Positions 29,603 through 42,343 of a stretch of DNA of 64,000 nucleotides are shown here, in pieces. Position 1 is the first letter of the stretch. The number at the start of each line of letters is the position of its first letter. The notes under the pieces are model-generated. The model saw nothing but the letters and a program-made list of their open reading frames with translations, did no database searches and was not told the origin of the DNA. Made by a program: the position numbers and the translations under genes. This DNA comes from Prevotella sp. (GTDB lineage: Bacteria > Bacteroidota > Bacteroidia > Bacteroidales > Bacteroidaceae): the NCBI GenBank assembly GCA_016285055.1, contig JAEEPZ010000006.1, positions 1-64,000 of the forward strand. The letters are read 5' to 3'.

Positions 29603-29730
29603 CGTTATAACGTCATAACGTGATAACGTGATAACGTGATGACGTAATAACGTGATAACGTAATAACGTGATGACGTAATAACGTGATAACGAAAACAAA
29701 ACGTGATAACGAAAACAAAACGAAATAACA
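29603..29730. repeat. TAACG-based tandem tract (CE7/GH26 gap)
   Basis: Units such as ATAACGTGATAACGTAATAACG fill the 136-bp gap between the esterase and mannanase genes. Related tracts occur at 32032-32065, 38426-38472 and 41871-42013. Confidence 0.9.
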
Positions 29731-35738: not shown

Positions 35739-36518
35739 TCAGTGGCTTAGGGCATCGAACAGTCGGTCGAGGGCGGCGTCAGCGTCGCCCTCGGCTTCGT
35801 TGAGGAGGGTGACAAACTTCGAACCGATGATGGCACCGGCGGCGTTGTCCTGTGCTGCCTTCAGCGTCTGCGCGTTGCTGATGCCAAAGCCTATCATGCG
35901 CGGATTGCGCAGGTGCATCGCATCGATGCGGCGGAAGTAAGCCTGCTTAGCCTCGTCGAAGCTCTTCTGCGCACCGGTGATGGCAGCCGACGAGACCATA
36001 TAGATGAAGCCGTCGGTGTGGTCGTCGATAAAACGGATGCGGTCGTCGCTGGTCTCGGGGGTGATGAGCATGATGACACGCAGGTCGTAGCGGTCGGCGA
36101 TGGGCTTGACGATGTTCAGATAGTCGTCGAAGGGCAGGTCGGGGATGATCATGCCGCTGACGCCCGCCTCGACGCAGCTCTGGCAGAAAGGCTCAATGCC
36201 GTAGTGCAGGATGGGGTTGAGATAGCCCATGAGAATCAACGGGATGGACACCTCGTCCTTGATGGCTTTCAGCTGGTCGAAGAGCAGTTGCACGCTCATG
36301 CCGTTCTTCAGAGCCTGCGTGGCAGCCGACTGGATAACGGGGCCGTCGGCCAGCGGGTCGCTGAAGGGAATGCCGACCTCGATGAAGTCGATGCCTCTTT
36401 TTTGCATGGTCTTGATGACGTGGCCAGTGCTGTTGAGGGTGGGGCAGCCGGCGCAGAAATAGAGGCTTAACAGTTTGCGGTCGGCGCGGGAGGAGAAAAG
36501 ATGGTTTATCTTGTTCAT
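35739..36518 (-). CDS. trpA: Tryptophan synthase alpha chain
   Basis: Splits indole-3-glycerol phosphate to indole and glyceraldehyde-3-phosphate and passes indole to TrpB. 259 residues. The start at 36518 (MNKINHLFSSRADRKLLSLYFCAGCP) is chosen; the tracked upstream extension overlaps trpC and is unrelated. Catalytic Glu in DFIEVGIPFSDPLADGPVIQSA and the Asp of PDLPFDDY are present, with MVSSAAITGAQ and GFGISNAQT forming the phosphate site. Last gene of the trp operon. Only 28 bp separate it from trpC, so no trpF lies between them. Confidence 0.96.
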   Translation of the reverse strand: MNKINHLFSSRADRKLLSLYFCAGCPTLNSTGHVIKTMQKRGIDFIEVGIPFSDPLADGPVIQSAATQALKNGMSVQLLFDQLKAIKDEVSIPLILMGYLNPILHYGIEPFCQSCVEAGVSGMIIPDLPFDDYLNIVKPIADRYDLRVIMLITPETSDDRIRFIDDHTDGFIYMVSSAAITGAQKSFDEAKQAYFRRIDAMHLRNPRMIGFGISNAQTLKAAQDNAAGAIIGSKFVTLLNEAEGDADAALDRLFDALSH

Positions 36519-36546
36519 GGTTGTTTTGTTTTTATGGGACTTATGC

Positions 36547-37281
36547 TTACAGCTGGGCGATGAAGGCACCAAGGGCCTGGCCTGGCTCGGGGTGGCGCAT
36601 GAAGGTCTCGCCGATGAGGAATCCACGGAAGCCGGCAGCACGCAGATCCTTGACGGTCTGCGGATTGCTGATGCCGCTCTCGCTGACCTTCACGGCCTCC
36701 TTCGGCAGGAGCTCAGCCAGACGGTAGCTGTTCTCGACAGAGGTGACAAAGGAGCCGAGGTTGCGGTTGTTGATGCCGCAGAGGTCGGGCTGCAGCTCGG
36801 CATACTCCAGCTCGCGCTCGTCGTGCATCTCCAGCAGCACCTCCAAGCCCAGCTCGTGCGCCTTGTGCAGCAGTGTTTTGCACTGCTGTTTCGACAGACA
36901 TGCCGCAATGAGCAGCACCGCACTGGCGCCGCAGTGGAGGGCGGCATAGAGCTGCGCCTCGTCGATGACGAAGTTCTTATATAATATAGGTAATGTGACG
37001 CCGCTTTTCCGCGCCATGCGGATGAAGTCGTCGTGGCCGCCGAAGTAATGCTCGTCGGTGAGGATGCTGAGGGCTGCGGCCCCGTTCTGCTGATAAGCCA
37101 GAGGGATGATGTCGGCGCGGCCCTCTTCCTTGATCCAGCCTTTGGAGGGCGACCTGCGCTTGAACTCGGCGATGATACCCGTCGGGCTGTCGAGCAGGGC
37201 CTGGCGCAGAGAGGCCTTCCGGGCTTTCAGCAGCGACAGCTCCTCGAGCTTGGTAGCAATGATTCTTTGAAGGATATCCAT
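36547..37281 (-). CDS. trpC: Indole-3-glycerol-phosphate synthase
   Basis: Ring-closing decarboxylase making indole-3-glycerol phosphate. 244 residues, a stand-alone domain not fused to TrpF. TIM-barrel signatures: IIAEFKRRSPSKGWI (catalytic Lys), LSILTDEHYFGG, LPILYKNFVIDEAQ (Lys), VLLEMHDERELE, GINNRNLGSF, VSESGISNPQ. Lies between trpD and trpA on the minus strand; the gap to trpD carries short ACTATAGAA-type repeats. Confidence 0.96.
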   Translation of the reverse strand: MDILQRIIATKLEELSLLKARKASLRQALLDSPTGIIAEFKRRSPSKGWIKEEGRADIIPLAYQQNGAAALSILTDEHYFGGHDDFIRMARKSGVTLPILYKNFVIDEAQLYAALHCGASAVLLIAACLSKQQCKTLLHKAHELGLEVLLEMHDERELEYAELQPDLCGINNRNLGSFVTSVENSYRLAELLPKEAVKVSESGISNPQTVKDLRAAGFRGFLIGETFMRHPEPGQALGAFIAQL

Positions 37282-37379: not shown

Positions 37380-38390
37380 CTATGAGTTCAGCTCCACAAA
37401 TTTCTTGAAGGTGCGCAGGGCGGCGCCGCTGTCGATGCTCTCGCGGGCAATGGCGATGCTCTCCTCTATGCTCTTCTGGCCCTTCTCCAGCACCTGGATG
37501 CCGAAGGCGGCGTTGGCCAGGACGATGTTCTTCTGGGCGGGCAGGGCGCGGTTCTCAAGCACTGCATCGAAAATCTCCTTTGCCTCCTGCTCGGTAGCAC
37601 CGGCGACAAGCTCCTCGGGCTTGGCAATGTCGAAGCCGAGGTCGCGTGGGCTGAAGATGCGCTCATAGTTGTTGGTCGTCACTTTGAAGTCGCCAGTCAG
37701 CGAAATCTCGTCGTAGCCGTCGATAGAGTTCACGATGCCGTAATCGATGCCGATGCGTTGGTACACCTGATGATAGAGGCGCATCTGGTCGAGGTTGGCC
37801 ACGCCTAACAGCTGACAGCTGGGCTGGCTGGGGTTGACCAGCGGGCCGAGCAGGTTGAAGATGGTGGGAAAGGGCAGCGCCTTGCGGATGGGCCCCACGA
37901 ACTTCATGGCTTTGGCAAAGAGCTGCGCGTGCAGATAGACGATGCCCGCCTCCTGCATACAGCGGTTCAGCTGGTCCAGGTCGTCGGTGAACTTCACGCC
38001 ATGCTGGGCGATGACGTTAGAGGCGCCGCTGGTCGACGTGGCGGCGTAGTTGCCGTGCTTGGCCACCTTATAGCCCGCTCCTGCAATGACGAAGCATGAG
38101 GTGGTAGAGATGTTAAAAGTGTTCTTGCGGTCGCCGCCGGTGCCCACGACATCGATGTAGCGGTCGCAGTCTAAAGGAACGGGCACGCCCGTCTCAAGGA
38201 TGCCGTCGCGGAAGCCGAGAAGCTCGTCGACGGTGACGCCGCGCATCTGCAGGCAGGTCAGCAGGGCGGTAATCTGCTCGTTGGGGTACTCGCTGTGGGT
38301 GATGCCCACCAGGATGGTCTTCATCTCCTCACGGGAGAGCTCTTCGTGGTTCAACAGGCGGAAGAGGTAGCCTTTCATGGTCTGTTCCAT
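37380..38390 (-). CDS. trpD: Anthranilate phosphoribosyltransferase
   Basis: Transfers phosphoribose from PRPP to anthranilate. 336 residues from ATG 38390 (MEQTMKGYLFRLLNHEELSREE); ATG 38378 is an alternative, and the tracked 38561 start overlaps trpG. PRPP-binding VDVVGTGGD-type motif YIDVVGTGGDRKNTFNISTT, KHGNYAATSTSGASNVI, and FNLLGPLVNPSQPSCQLLGV are all present. Not fused to trpG. The 88-bp gap upstream holds a TAACG tract. Confidence 0.96.
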   Translation of the reverse strand: MEQTMKGYLFRLLNHEELSREEMKTILVGITHSEYPNEQITALLTCLQMRGVTVDELLGFRDGILETGVPVPLDCDRYIDVVGTGGDRKNTFNISTTSCFVIAGAGYKVAKHGNYAATSTSGASNVIAQHGVKFTDDLDQLNRCMQEAGIVYLHAQLFAKAMKFVGPIRKALPFPTIFNLLGPLVNPSQPSCQLLGVANLDQMRLYHQVYQRIGIDYGIVNSIDGYDEISLTGDFKVTTNNYERIFSPRDLGFDIAKPEELVAGATEQEAKEIFDAVLENRALPAQKNIVLANAAFGIQVLEKGQKSIEESIAIARESIDSGAALRTFKKFVELNS

Positions 38391-38425
38391 TATTCTGGTT
38401 TTTTTTATGTTGTTTTGCTTTTTTT

Positions 38426-38472
38426 CGTTATAACGTGATAACGTGATTTCGTTATAACGCCATTTCGTTATC
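38426..38472. repeat. TAACG tract (trpG/trpD gap)
   Basis: CGTTATAACGTGATAACGTG-type units, same family as the tracts around GH26 and in front of trpB. Confidence 0.85.
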
Positions 38473-38478
38473 TTGTGG

Positions 38479-39042
38479 TTAGAGGAAGAGCCAGTTCTGC
38501 AGCATCTTCTTGCCGTCGGGCGTGAGGACGCTCTCTGGGTGGAACTGTATGCCGCGCACATTGAGTGTCTTGTGGCGGAGGGCCATGATCTGTCCCTCGT
38601 CCGAGACGGCTGTCACCTCGAGGCTGTCGGGCAGACCTTCGCGTGCGACGACCCATGAGTGGTAACGGCCGATGGTGATGTCGCGACTGATGCCGCTGAA
38701 GATGGGGTCGTCGGCTATGATATGGCAGGGCGTAGCGACGCCGTGGAAGACGTCAGAGAGGTTCTCGAGCCTTCCGCCGAAGACCTCGCCGATGGCCTGA
38801 TGGCCGAGGCAGACGCCGAGGATAGGCTTGCGGCCGGCGTAGGTGCGGATGACGTCGAGCAGCAGGCCCGCCTCTGAGGGGATGCCGGGGCCGGGCGAGA
38901 GGATGATCTTACTGTAAGGCTCTAAATCGGCGAGCTCGAACTGGTCGTTGCGCACGACGGTGACTTCGGCGCCCAGTTCCTTTACCAGGTGACTCAGGTT
39001 GTAGGTGAATGAGTCGTAGTTGTCTATGATGGCTATTTTCAT
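38479..39042 (-). CDS. trpG: Anthranilate synthase glutamine amidotransferase subunit
   Basis: Class I glutamine amidotransferase providing ammonia to TrpE. 187 residues. N-terminus MKIAIIDNYDSFTYNL, oxyanion loop ILSPGPGIPSEAG, nucleophile Cys in ILGVCLGHQAIGE, and the His-Glu pair in GIQFHPESVLT are typical. It may also serve folate synthesis as PabA, which cannot be told from sequence. Located between trpE and trpD. Confidence 0.95.
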   Translation of the reverse strand: MKIAIIDNYDSFTYNLSHLVKELGAEVTVVRNDQFELADLEPYSKIILSPGPGIPSEAGLLLDVIRTYAGRKPILGVCLGHQAIGEVFGGRLENLSDVFHGVATPCHIIADDPIFSGISRDITIGRYHSWVVAREGLPDSLEVTAVSDEGQIMALRHKTLNVRGIQFHPESVLTPDGKKMLQNWLFL

Positions 39043-39045
39043 GAT

Positions 39046-39146
39046 GGGTTGTAGGATTAAGAGGACTTGAGAGGATTTTAGAGGACTTGAGAGGACTTGA
39101 GAGGACTTATAGGACTCATAAGACCCATAAGACTCATAAGACTCAT
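39046..39146. repeat. GAGAGGACT / TATGAGTCT nonamer tract overlapping the trpE stop
   Basis: The trpE-trpG gap consists of nonamers related to those inside GH92 (TATGAGTCT, TATGGGTCT, TATAAGTCC on minus). The trpE stop TGA (39143-39145) is made by the first repeat unit. Confidence 0.85.
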
Positions 39147-40624
39147 AATGTGGCGGCTTTCTCGATGGCTTTGCGGAGGGCGCCGAGCTTGTTGTTCACT
39201 TCCTGCAGCTCGTACTCCACGTCGCTCTTGGCCACGATGCCGCCGCCAGCCTGGAACCACAGCTCACCGTTGCGGGCAACGAAGGTGCGGATGGTGATGG
39301 CCTGGTTGAGGCTGCCGTCGAGACCGATGATGCCGATGCAGCCGCCGTAGGCACCACGGCTGTGGGGCTCGTAATCGCTGATGAGCTGCATGGCGCGCAC
39401 CTTGGGCGCACCGCTGAGCGTGCCGGCGGGGAAGGTGTCGATAAACGCCTTGACGGGGTCGGCACCTTCGTCCAGCTCGCCGCTGACACGAGAGACGAGA
39501 TGGATGACGTGCGAGTAATACTGAATGTCCTTGAAATAGTCCACCTTCACGTTGTGGCAGTTGCGGCTCAGGTCGTTGCGGGCCAAGTCTACCAGCATGA
39601 CGTGCTCGGCATTCTCCTTCGGGTCGTTGCGCAGGAACTCGGCCCCGCGGCGGTCGGCCTCAGCATCGCCCGTGCGCTTCGTCGTGCCGGCGATGGGGTC
39701 GATGTAGGCGCGGAAGGACTTATGACCAGCCGGCAAAGCCTTCTGGCACTCTATGCGGCAGTGCGTCTCGGGTGAGGAACCGAAGATGCGGAAGCCGCCG
39801 AAGTCGAAATAGAAGAGATAGGGCGAGGGATTGATGCTGCGCAGGGCACGGTAGAGCTTGAAGTCGTCGCCCTCGTACTTCTGGATGAAGCGGCGCGAGA
39901 GGACTATCTGGAACACGTCGCCGCGCAGACAGTGGCGGATGCCCCGCCGGATGTTCTCCCTGTGCTCATCGTCGGTCAGCGTGCTGGTGACATCGCCTAC
40001 GGGATGGAAGGCGTAGGCCTTCACGTTGCTGCGGTTCATGGCTTTGAGGATGGCCCCCCCTACGGCCCCCGAGGGGGCTTCATTAGTTCTTACTCCGGGC
40101 TCTATGGTGTCCCCCACGGGGGACGAAAGGGGGGCTAGTTCCACGATTTTCAGCATGTTGTTGTGATGGTCGAAGACGATGACCACCTTATATAAGATGT
40201 AGAGCATGTCGGGCGCATCGTTCTTCGCCTGTGTCTCGTCTTTCATGGCGATGTCCTCGAAGTAGCGCACGGCGTTGAAGCTGGTGTAGCCGAAGAGACC
40301 GCAGACACTGGCGTCGTCGCCCTCGACGTGGATGCTGTCGATGAGCGTATGGATGGCTTCAGCGGTGCCGAAGCCTGCGCCAAGCTCCTGGCGGATGGTG
40401 CTGCCGTCGGGGTAGGCGACGGTGGCGATGCCGTGGCCTATGGCTACGCTGGCGATGGGGTTGATGCCGATGAAGCTCCTCGAGTTGCTTGCGTCGTGAT
40501 AGTCGGAGCTCTCCATCAACGCGCTCTGCGGGTAGAGGTCGCGCAGCCGCAGGTAAACGCCAACAGGGGTGTAGAGGTCGGCGAGAATCGTCTGGCTCGT
40601 TGTTTTGTATTGAAACGTCTTCAT
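39143..40624 (-). CDS. trpE: Anthranilate synthase component I with an in-frame palindromic insertion
   Basis: Converts chorismate and ammonia to anthranilate; the first committed, feedback-inhibited step. 493 residues, about 28 longer than Bacteroides homologues. The allosteric Trp site motif is kept in ALMESSDYHDASNSRSFIG. Chorismate-site blocks: FGSSPETHCRIE, IDPIAGTTKRTGDAEADRR, MLVDLARNDLSRNC, FPAGTLSGAPKVRAM, GAYGGCIGIIG, IRTFVARNGELWFQAGGGIV. The GC-rich palindromic element inserts 28 residues at 164-191, between LKIVEL and ILKAMNRSNVKAY, in the linker between the N-terminal regulatory and catalytic parts. Seven bp after trpB. Confidence 0.95.
   Translation of the reverse strand: MKTFQYKTTSQTILADLYTPVGVYLRLRDLYPQSALMESSDYHDASNSRSFIGINPIASVAIGHGIATVAYPDGSTIRQELGAGFGTAEAIHTLIDSIHVEGDDASVCGLFGYTSFNAVRYFEDIAMKDETQAKNDAPDMLYILYKVVIVFDHHNNMLKIVELAPLSSPVGDTIEPGVRTNEAPSGAVGGAILKAMNRSNVKAYAFHPVGDVTSTLTDDEHRENIRRGIRHCLRGDVFQIVLSRRFIQKYEGDDFKLYRALRSINPSPYLFYFDFGGFRIFGSSPETHCRIECQKALPAGHKSFRAYIDPIAGTTKRTGDAEADRRGAEFLRNDPKENAEHVMLVDLARNDLSRNCHNVKVDYFKDIQYYSHVIHLVSRVSGELDEGADPVKAFIDTFPAGTLSGAPKVRAMQLISDYEPHSRGAYGGCIGIIGLDGSLNQAITIRTFVARNGELWFQAGGGIVAKSDVEYELQEVNNKLGALRKAIEKAATL
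40052..40135 (-). repeat. In-frame GC-rich palindromic element in trpE
   Basis: 84 bp, 28 codons (A-P-L-S-S-P-V-G-D-T ... [11 protein letters not shown]). The arms are nearly identical to the AGE copy; the inner core differs. Confidence 0.95.
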
Positions 40625-40631
40625 GTTCGTA

Positions 40632-41825
40632 TTAGTTTTTTACCATATCCTTGTTTTTCAAATAGGTCTCGATGTCCTTGTCGCCGCGGCCGCTGACGGT
40701 GAGCACCACCACGTCGTCCTTCTTGAACGTCATTTTCGACAGCGCTGCGATGGCATGGGCGCTCTCTATGGCGGGGATGATGCCCTCCATGCGTGTCAGC
40801 TCGTAGCCGGCACGGATGGCCTCGTCGTCGTTGATGCTCAGCACCTGCGTGCGTCCCTGCTTCGCCATGTTGCAGTGCATGGGGCCTACGCCGGGATAGT
40901 CGAGTCCGGCACTGATGGTGAACGCCTCCTGTATCTGTCCGTCGCCGTCCTGCATCACCAGCATCTTCGCGCCGTGGAGGATGCCTACGGTGCCGCGATG
41001 GATGGTGGCCGCTGTGTAGTCGGTGTCCCAGCCGTGTCCGCCCGCCTCGGCCAGCACAATCTTCACCCGCTCGTCGTCCATGTAGTGGTAGATGGTGCCG
41101 GCAGCATTCGAGCCGCCGCCGATGCAGGCCATGAGGTAGTCGGGGTAGTCGCGGCCCGTCTTCTCCTGCAGCTGCCACTTGATTTCCTCCGAGATGACGC
41201 TCTGCATCCTCGCCACGAGGTCAGGATAGGGGTGGGGCCCCATGGTCGAGCCTACGATGTAGAAGGTGTCGGCGGGATGGCAGCACCAGTCGCGTATGGC
41301 CTCTGAGCAGGCGTCGCTCAGTGTCATGTTGCCCGTGCGGACGGGATGCACCTCGGCGCCCAGCATCTTCATGCGCTCCACGTTGGTGTGCTGGCGCTCC
41401 ACGTCGGTGGCTCCCATGAACACCTCGCACTGCATGCCCATCAGGGCGCACACCGTAGCCGTGGCCACGCCGTGCTGCCCGGCACCGGTCTCGGCGATGA
41501 TGCGTGTCTTGCCCATCTTCTTCGCCAAGAGGATCTGTCCCACGGTGTTGTTGATTTTGTGCGCCCCGGTGTGGTTGAGGTCTTCGCGTTTCAGGTAGAG
41601 TTGGCAGCCGTAGCGCTCGCTCATCCTTCGGGCGAAGTAGAGCGGCGACGGACGGCCTACGTAGTCTTTCAACAGCGCATGATACTCCGTCTTAAACTCC
41701 TCGCTCTCGATGATGGGCAGGTAAGCCTCTTGCAAGTCATGCACGCACTTGTAGAGAATCTCGGGCACGTAAGCGCCGCCGAACTCCCCATAGAATCCTT
41801 TCTCGTCAACTTGAAATTTACTCAT
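40632..41825 (-). CDS. trpB: Tryptophan synthase beta chain
   Basis: PLP enzyme condensing indole with serine. 397 residues, normal length. YGEFGGAYVPEIL at the N-terminus, PLP Lys in LYLKREDLNHTGAHKINNTVGQ, ETGAGQHGVATATV, phosphate-binding GGGSNAAGTIYHY, and the monovalent-cation region GLDYPGVGPMHC are all present. It is the first structural gene of the operon (B-E-G-D-C-A), placing it under the attenuator described upstream. The start is 190 bp after the terminator hairpin. Confidence 0.97.
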   Translation of the reverse strand: MSKFQVDEKGFYGEFGGAYVPEILYKCVHDLQEAYLPIIESEEFKTEYHALLKDYVGRPSPLYFARRMSERYGCQLYLKREDLNHTGAHKINNTVGQILLAKKMGKTRIIAETGAGQHGVATATVCALMGMQCEVFMGATDVERQHTNVERMKMLGAEVHPVRTGNMTLSDACSEAIRDWCCHPADTFYIVGSTMGPHPYPDLVARMQSVISEEIKWQLQEKTGRDYPDYLMACIGGGSNAAGTIYHYMDDERVKIVLAEAGGHGWDTDYTAATIHRGTVGILHGAKMLVMQDGDGQIQEAFTISAGLDYPGVGPMHCNMAKQGRTQVLSINDDEAIRAGYELTRMEGIIPAIESAHAIAALSKMTFKKDDVVVLTVSGRGDKDIETYLKNKDMVKN

Positions 41826-41870
41826 AATCCGGTTATTTATTTCGTTGTGATGTTTTTTTCGGGGTTTCTT

Positions 41871-42013
41871 TCGTTATTTCGTTATCACGTTATCACGTTA
41901 TTTCGTTATCACGTTTCCTCGTTATTACGTTATTACGTTATTTCGTTATCACGTTATTTCGTTATCACGTTTTCTCGTTATTACGTTATTACGTCATTAC
42001 GTTATAACGAAAC
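41871..42013. repeat. TAACG tract in the trp leader
   Basis: Units such as CGTTATTTCGTTATCACGTT fill the stretch between the attenuator and trpB. They would be transcribed in readthrough mRNA; no protein is encoded. Confidence 0.9.
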
Positions 42014-42014
42014 G

Positions 42015-42047
42015 AAAAAGAGACCCGCCGCAGTCGCGACGAGCCTC
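42015..42047 (-). terminator. trp attenuator terminator hairpin
   Basis: On the minus strand a fully paired 12-bp stem (5' arm GAGGCTCGTCGC, 3' arm GCGGCGGGTCTC, with G-U pairs) has a GACT loop and is followed by five T residues. It is segment 3:4 of the attenuator. Confidence 0.9.
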
Positions 42048-42090
42048 CGTTTTATCCTTTGATGAACATACACAGCTCAGTGCCTCGCGA

Positions 42091-42144
42091 CTAATCCTGT
42101 CTCGAGCGCCACCACCAAGCGTATGCGTTCATGCTTCGTTTCAT
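42091..42144 (-). CDS. trpL: trp leader peptide
   Basis: A 17-codon ORF, too short for the ORF track, encodes MKRSMNAYAWWWRSRQD followed by TAG. Three consecutive Trp codons (42109-42117) are placed directly before attenuator segment 1. The ATG is about 27 nt from the predicted transcript start. The peptide acts as a sensor of charged tRNA-Trp; it has no sequence counterpart elsewhere in the window. Confidence 0.88.
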   Translation of the reverse strand: MKRSMNAYAWWWRSRQD

Positions 42145-42177
42145 TGTCGTCTTTGCCGTTTAGTTTGATTTCGGCGG

Positions 42178-42208
42178 CAAAAGTACATCTTTTCTTTCAA
42201 TCTGCAAA
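42178..42208 (-). promoter_or_regulatory. trp operon promoter
   Basis: Minus-strand TTTG (42205-42208) and TACTTTTG (42178-42185) are spaced by 19 bp, matching the Bacteroidetes promoter. Transcription would begin near 42171, just before trpL. Confidence 0.75.
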
Positions 42209-42303
42209 ATTTTTCGTCACTTTTTTTGAAGAAAAAAATATCAGACGAGCTTTGTTGCGTTTTTCTTTGCCATGGCTTCCATGTCTTTAGATGGTTTTCT
42301 ATC

Positions 42304-42343
42304 ACGGAATTTCCGTGACGGAAATTCCGTCACGGAAATTCCG
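42304..42343. repeat. Three tandem ACGGAAATTCCGT palindromes
   Basis: ACGGAATTTCCGT, ACGGAAATTCCGT and ACGGAAATTCCGC follow one another with a 14-bp period between the trp promoter and the SusD terminator. Confidence 0.9.

Follow-up and report, generated by a model that had tools for sequence, protein, structure and literature searches.

A probable ribosome-mediated attenuator upstream of a Prevotella trp operon: a member of the Bacteroid-trp leader class, with serial double leaders in other Bacteroidales

The stretch of DNA analyzed here (the window, 64,000 nucleotides from the metagenome genome, designated G000, of a rumen Prevotella sp.) carries on its minus strand a tryptophan operon in the order trpB-trpE-trpG-trpD-trpC-trpA. 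The genes trpB (tryptophan synthase beta; 40632 to 41825), trpG (anthranilate synthase component II; 38479 to 39042), trpD (anthranilate phosphoribosyltransferase; 37380 to 38393, start codon provisional), trpC (indole-3-glycerol phosphate synthase; 36547 to 37281), and trpA (tryptophan synthase alpha; 35739 to 36518, start codon provisional) matched TIGR00263, TIGR00566, TIGR01245, NF001377, and TIGR00262, respectively, over cut-off. Anthranilate synthase component I, trpE (39143 to 40624), was assigned from its position in the operon and from its best match, TIGR00564, which scored below the cut-off of that model. A prior interpretation made from the letters alone (the sequence-only reading) had placed an attenuator in front of a trp operon, and this location holds, with the correction that the first structural gene is trpB and trpE is second. 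The ESS sequence it had pointed out in trpE is likewise present, as LMESSDYH in the TrpE protein, where it is a putative feedback motif. No trpF lies between trpC and trpA (36518 to 36547); the sole PRAI match of the genome is on another contig (G000:C186:30410-31075). This genome (4.6 Mb, 5% contamination) contains three trpB genes that are ∼93% alike (contigs C221, C51, and C206), each with its own leader, and it is probably a mixed bin.

The attenuator region occupies the minus strand from 42208 to 42015, directly 5' of the operon. A −33-like element, TTTG (42205 to 42208), is followed after a 19-nt spacer by the −7 element TACTTTTG (42178 to 42185; Bacteroidota consensus, TAnnTTTG). Downstream, an open reading frame of 17 codons plus UAG (42144 to 42091, with its ATG at 42144 and its stop at 42091) encodes MKRSMNAYAWWWRSRQD and includes three adjacent Trp codons, UGG UGG UGG (42117 to 42109). 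Folding predicted a 1:2 hairpin spanning 42132 to 42062. The sequence-only reading had this hairpin start right after the Trp codons, which is true of the apical stem (CUCG-A-GAC/GUC-G-CGAG, 42106 to 42099 paired with 42091 to 42084) but not of the whole structure: its long arm starts upstream, at 42132, and the Trp codons lie within that 5' arm, as they do in the Rfam consensus of RF01692. Antiterminator strand 2, AGUCGCGA (42092 to 42085), begins inside the stop codon of the leader ORF and is exactly complementary over 8 bp to strand 3, UCGCGACU (42039 to 42032), which comprises part of the terminator 5' arm and its loop. The intrinsic terminator (3:4; 42047 to 42015) has a GC-rich 12-bp stem (42047 to 42036 paired with 42031 to 42020), the loop GACU, and five U residues (42019 to 42015). 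The promoter, the 17-residue ORF with its Trp codons, the exact 2:3 pairing, and the 12-bp terminator with its T run had all been described from the letters and were borne out here. The leader fold was more stable than expected (z = −3.3), with none of 200 shuffled sequences equally stable. The ∼190 nt between the U run and trpB consist mostly of an 8-bp tandem array (∼17 CGTTATTA-like copies, 41872 to 42009). Similar 8-bp arrays occur in the window at 29603 to 29692 and at 38434 to 38471, and many other short intergenic tandem arrays are also present.

Conservation of the peptide and promoter was assessed at the 80 nearest named trpB loci taken from GTDB genomes, nearly all of them Prevotella-type metagenome genomes, many of ruminant origin, together with one Xylanibacter brevis. 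A WW(W) leader was found at 79 of these loci: at 78, a short ORF 5' of trpB contains consecutive Trp codons, and at one further locus (L123) such codons lie at the edge of a contig. At a single close locus (L098), no leader was found within 2.5 kb of trpB. When leaders from these loci were pooled with those from near genomes of the genus (n = 100), three Trp codons were present in 93, two in six, and four in one. An ATG no more than 45 nt upstream, in frame and open into the Trp run, was found in 100 of 100 leaders compared with 15 and 7 in the shifted frames, a contrast somewhat inflated because leaders had been chosen by an in-frame ATG within 90 nt. TAnnTTTG occurred in 98 of the 99 leaders whose 5' flank was long enough, where 3.4 would be expected. 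Its spacing to the first Trp codon is nearly constant (mostly 55 to 66 nt), and TTTG lay 17 to 24 nt 5' of TAnnTTTG in 90 of 99. The run of two to four Trp codons is conserved and the remaining peptide is variable. The anatomy of the leader is strongly conserved. The sequence-only reading had proposed conservation of the Trp codons and pairings in close relatives as its own test, and both are conserved.

This pattern also bears on what the peptide may sense. A short, Trp-containing leader ORF preceding Trp-related genes could in principle act like TnaC and detect free tryptophan within the ribosome instead of tRNA-Trp charging. However, it is the adjacent Trp codons that are kept while the remaining peptide varies, the downstream genes are biosynthetic and would need a response opposite to that of TnaC, and the leader has a 3:4 terminator with alternative pairings. 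We therefore consider a TnaC-like mechanism extremely unlikely and favor a leader that reads tRNA-Trp charging through its Trp codons.

Pairing was evaluated in an alignment of 32 diverse leaders. Across the apical 1:2 stem and the 3:4 terminator, 98.2% of cells were paired, a fraction somewhat favorable to the window structure, since the reference structure was derived from the window sequence. Two-sided changes were seen in 11 of the 19 pairs of these helices, the apical stem covarying and the terminator contributing changes in 8 of its 12 pairs. Neither the fraction of paired cells nor the covariation score was matched in any of 500 shuffles, and shifting the partner by 1 to 3 columns reduced pairing to 36 to 53%. 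In the pooled set, the terminator hairpin was not detected within the trimmed stretch of 3 of 100 leaders.

A single column-wise 2:3 structure, by comparison, paired just 74.8% of cells across all leaders, because two subtypes, CUCGAG (including the window) and CUCAAG, pair in different registers. The 2:3 helix was therefore assessed separately in each type, from folds and from exchanges of strands among leaders. In the CUCAAG type, which includes most leaders, strand 2 (UCGUGAGAA-GAUAG-CC) pairs with GG-CUGUC-UUCUUGCGA, which is made up of part of strand 3, the loop, and the beginning of strand 4. In the CUCGAG type, AGUCGCGA pairs with UCGCGACU, and a second short helix forms. Both types share a core in which columns 67 to 70 pair with columns 142 to 145 in all 32 rows with the exception of one cell, and 12 rows show a two-sided exchange from U-A to C-G. 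Strand 2 combined with strand 3 of its own type gave −19 to −21 kcal/mol, versus −14 to −16 kcal/mol with that of the other type, a contrast explained in part by shared descent, as the sequences are related and not independent. The 2:3 energy of the window was equaled in 394 of 10,000 shuffles; it is modestly unusual and by itself weak evidence, so that support for the 2:3 pairing comes instead from its recurrence across leaders. On these alignments and folds, the predicted 2:3 helix has weaker support than 1:2 and 3:4.

The arrangement resembles that of trpL in Escherichia coli, which combines adjacent Trp codons with an intrinsic terminator ahead of the trp operon and has four strands able to pair either as 1:2 and 3:4 or as 2:3. 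The window leader shares these features of peptide, pairing, terminator, and operon but lacks a sequence match to trpL, has a Bacteroidota promoter, precedes trpB rather than trpE, and contains three Trp codons rather than two. As in classical attenuators, codons for the end product lie in the ORF, the 2:3 and 3:4 pairings are conserved and mutually exclusive, and the stop codon is placed such that a ribosome there could cover strand 2.

In the mechanism we propose, transcription would start just below the TAnnTTTG box. With charged tRNA-Trp scarce, a ribosome translating the 17-codon leader would pause at the three UGG codons and mask strand 1; strand 2 could then pair with strand 3 as an antiterminator, and polymerase would continue into trpB. 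With ample Trp, the ribosome would reach the stop codon abutting strand 2 and mask that strand, allowing the 3:4 terminator to form. If no ribosome were present, both 1:2 and the terminator would form. We folded the RNA left free by a ribosome that was assumed to shield 10 nt past the codon. When strand 1 was masked and the transcript reached the terminator loop, 2:3 was predicted to form (−22.0 kcal/mol); a ribosome placed at the stop masked strand 2, and 2:3 was lost; in the full transcript without a ribosome, 1:2 and 3:4 formed. Other leaders showed an energy shift in the same direction (median, −14.0 versus −5.8 kcal/mol). At equilibrium, the completed terminator was predicted to beat 2:3 even when strand 1 was masked. 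The antiterminator must therefore prevail through the order of events in time, as it does in known attenuators. From the conserved codons and pairings together with the predicted folds, we infer that ribosomes stall in this leader, that termination takes place in vivo, and that the outcome responds to tryptophan. A ribosome-mediated transcription attenuator of the trpBEGDCA operon, the classical E. coli-like device that the sequence-only reading had proposed, is the best explanation of the locus, and we hold it with high confidence; the leader very probably shuts down the genes for tryptophan synthesis under ample tryptophan.

Linkage of the leader to trp genes was examined with R1, a covariance model built from the 32 aligned leaders. 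A full trpB is present in 25 of the 35 nearest genomes of the genus and absent from the other 10. A strong R1 match (E < 1e-15, E-values being rough) was detected in 25 of 25 genomes with trpB and in 0 of 10 without it, with the qualification that several of the 25 supplied R1 seeds; those lacking a trpB-adjacent leader supplied none. One genome without trpB (G016) gave a marginal match (7e-4). In most genomes without a trpB-adjacent leader, a trpA-like gene precedes trpB; in the two loci examined (L045 and L047), the leader precedes trpD, farther upstream in the operon. Where gene order changes, the leader moves to the front of the operon. R1 matched in 79 of 100 genomes of the genus and in up to 133 of 247 Bacteroidales genomes, the latter being an upper estimate because some weak matches lack a Trp leader. 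Every strong match lay at a locus with a Trp-run ORF. Among 20 weaker matches inspected, such an ORF was present at 11, and the other 9 had no Trp leader. Several weak matches were rejected as trp leaders, as they resemble ordinary terminators at gene ends.

This linkage is also relevant to whether the selected function is exerted in trans, by the terminated leader RNA or the peptide, rather than by attenuation in cis. The terminator would free a short RNA, and a trans role has been reported for peTrpL of Sinorhizobium, another trp leader peptide (PMC7298713). Nevertheless, the parts conserved here are those that switching in cis needs (the Trp codons, 1:2, 2:3, and 3:4), the peptide outside the Trp run tracks RNA pairing, and the leader is always linked to trp genes. 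Selection for action in trans in place of attenuation in cis thus appears very unlikely, although the leader may act in trans as well.

The sequence-only reading had left in doubt whether such a class had been described. It has: RF01692 (Bacteroid-trp), the "Bacteroidete tryptophan peptide leader RNA," came from a 2010 survey (Weinberg 2010; PMC2864571), a 2019 paper on Flavobacterium psychrophilum likened it to the E. coli trp leader (PMC6414381), and a 2021 F. psychrophilum transcriptome reported strong indications that leader peptides attenuate amino acid operons (PMC9723704). The RF01692 model itself did not match in the window at its gathering score, nor at E = 10 in 41820 to 42320. Weak Rfam hits, mostly to miRNA and sRNA families on the AT-rich repeat array, were set aside. 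Despite the missing match, the window leader resembles RF01692 in its short ORF with a UGG run 5' of trp genes in Bacteroidota, in the placement of that run within the 1:2 5' arm, and in a GUCGUGAG-like strand 2 followed by the terminator 5' arm; it differs in belonging to the CUCGAG subtype, with 2:3 in another register. Intermediate cases connect the two. Leaders that RF01692 scores at 52.2 bits (L025, before trpB in genome G015), 49.7 bits (L029), and 50.2 bits (L030) align with the window leader, and R1 finds them at the same places, though not independently, since these three are R1 seeds. Wherever both models match, their positions coincide, including genomes outside the R1 seed (G024, G076, G091, G088, G204, G159, and others). 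The attenuator class is therefore already known, cataloged in 2010, and judged by homology the window copy is a further member. Within the genus, RF01692 matched 7 of 100 genomes, 4 of them over cut-off; across Bacteroidales, it matched 19 of 247, of which 11 were over cut-off.

The Rfam search also speaks to a sensor of the T-box, TRAP, or riboswitch-like kind that would read the leader, with the ORF incidental. Although a terminator and alternative pairings are present, no Rfam family was found at gathering threshold in the window and none plausible at E = 10 around the leader, and the frame into the Trp run is preserved in all leaders collected. An incidental ORF is hardly credible on this evidence.

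Paired R1 matches ∼140 nt apart revealed serial double leaders in other Bacteroidales genomes. At ten loci (L169 to L174, L247 to L249, and L251), two Trp units lie in series, ∼140 to 150 nt apart, before trpE or trpB; in each unit, a hairpin and T run lie downstream of a short ORF whose Trp codons are clustered. A further locus (L250; G365:C253:848-1155) has two His-rich units before hisG, each with a terminator; the second was identified from the ORF listing and the first was read by eye from the sequence. A scan recognized terminators for both units in 9 of the 11 double leaders. TAnnTTTG was not seen between the units at 10 of the 11 loci; in L173, it occurs 28 nt before the second Trp run, nearer than the usual spacing. 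An exact TAnnTTTG was not found 5' of the first unit at 3 of the 11. Two units behind one promoter might gate transcription in series, multiplicatively. A search of an open-access library, in which most subscription journals are missing, found no description of such double amino acid leaders.

Leaders for other amino acids were also detected as single units: MKSITIHHHHFSQR (HHHH) before hisG (L200; G177:C32:15696-15827) and MKISAYISINCCWCCENTSKCKQFVNM (CCWCC), with a terminator, before a cysteine synthase gene (L186; G228:C131:15458-15609). No Cys leader was found before cysteine synthase in sister genera of G228, and in the genome that contains the window no His leader was seen ahead of hisG. 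Leaders for His and Cys may share ancestry with the Trp leaders. We see an even chance that the Bacteroidales trp leader is one member of a modular type of attenuator, duplicated in series and re-tuned to other amino acids (His and possibly Cys). The attenuators of the Salmonella mgtCBR leader sense different signals. Their tandem placement in one leader (PMC3641672) resembles that of the double leaders in other Bacteroidales; in the latter, by contrast, the units repeat one amino acid sensor, and the window has a single unit.

The window element is itself ordinary for its group, and its interest for specialists lies in the under-detection of the class and in the serial double leaders. Bacteroidota use a different type of promoter, and Shine-Dalgarno sequences are seldom used among them. 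Attenuation of trp genes by a classical peptide leader appears to be standard in Prevotella and common in Bacteroidales, which are far from E. coli, and the public RNA model overlooks most copies of the leader. Because the strands and codons are well defined, the leader would offer a clean system for testing whether the coupling of ribosome and RNA polymerase in Bacteroidota is tight enough for attenuation, and the series-duplicated leaders of its relatives make gating by stacked attenuators testable.
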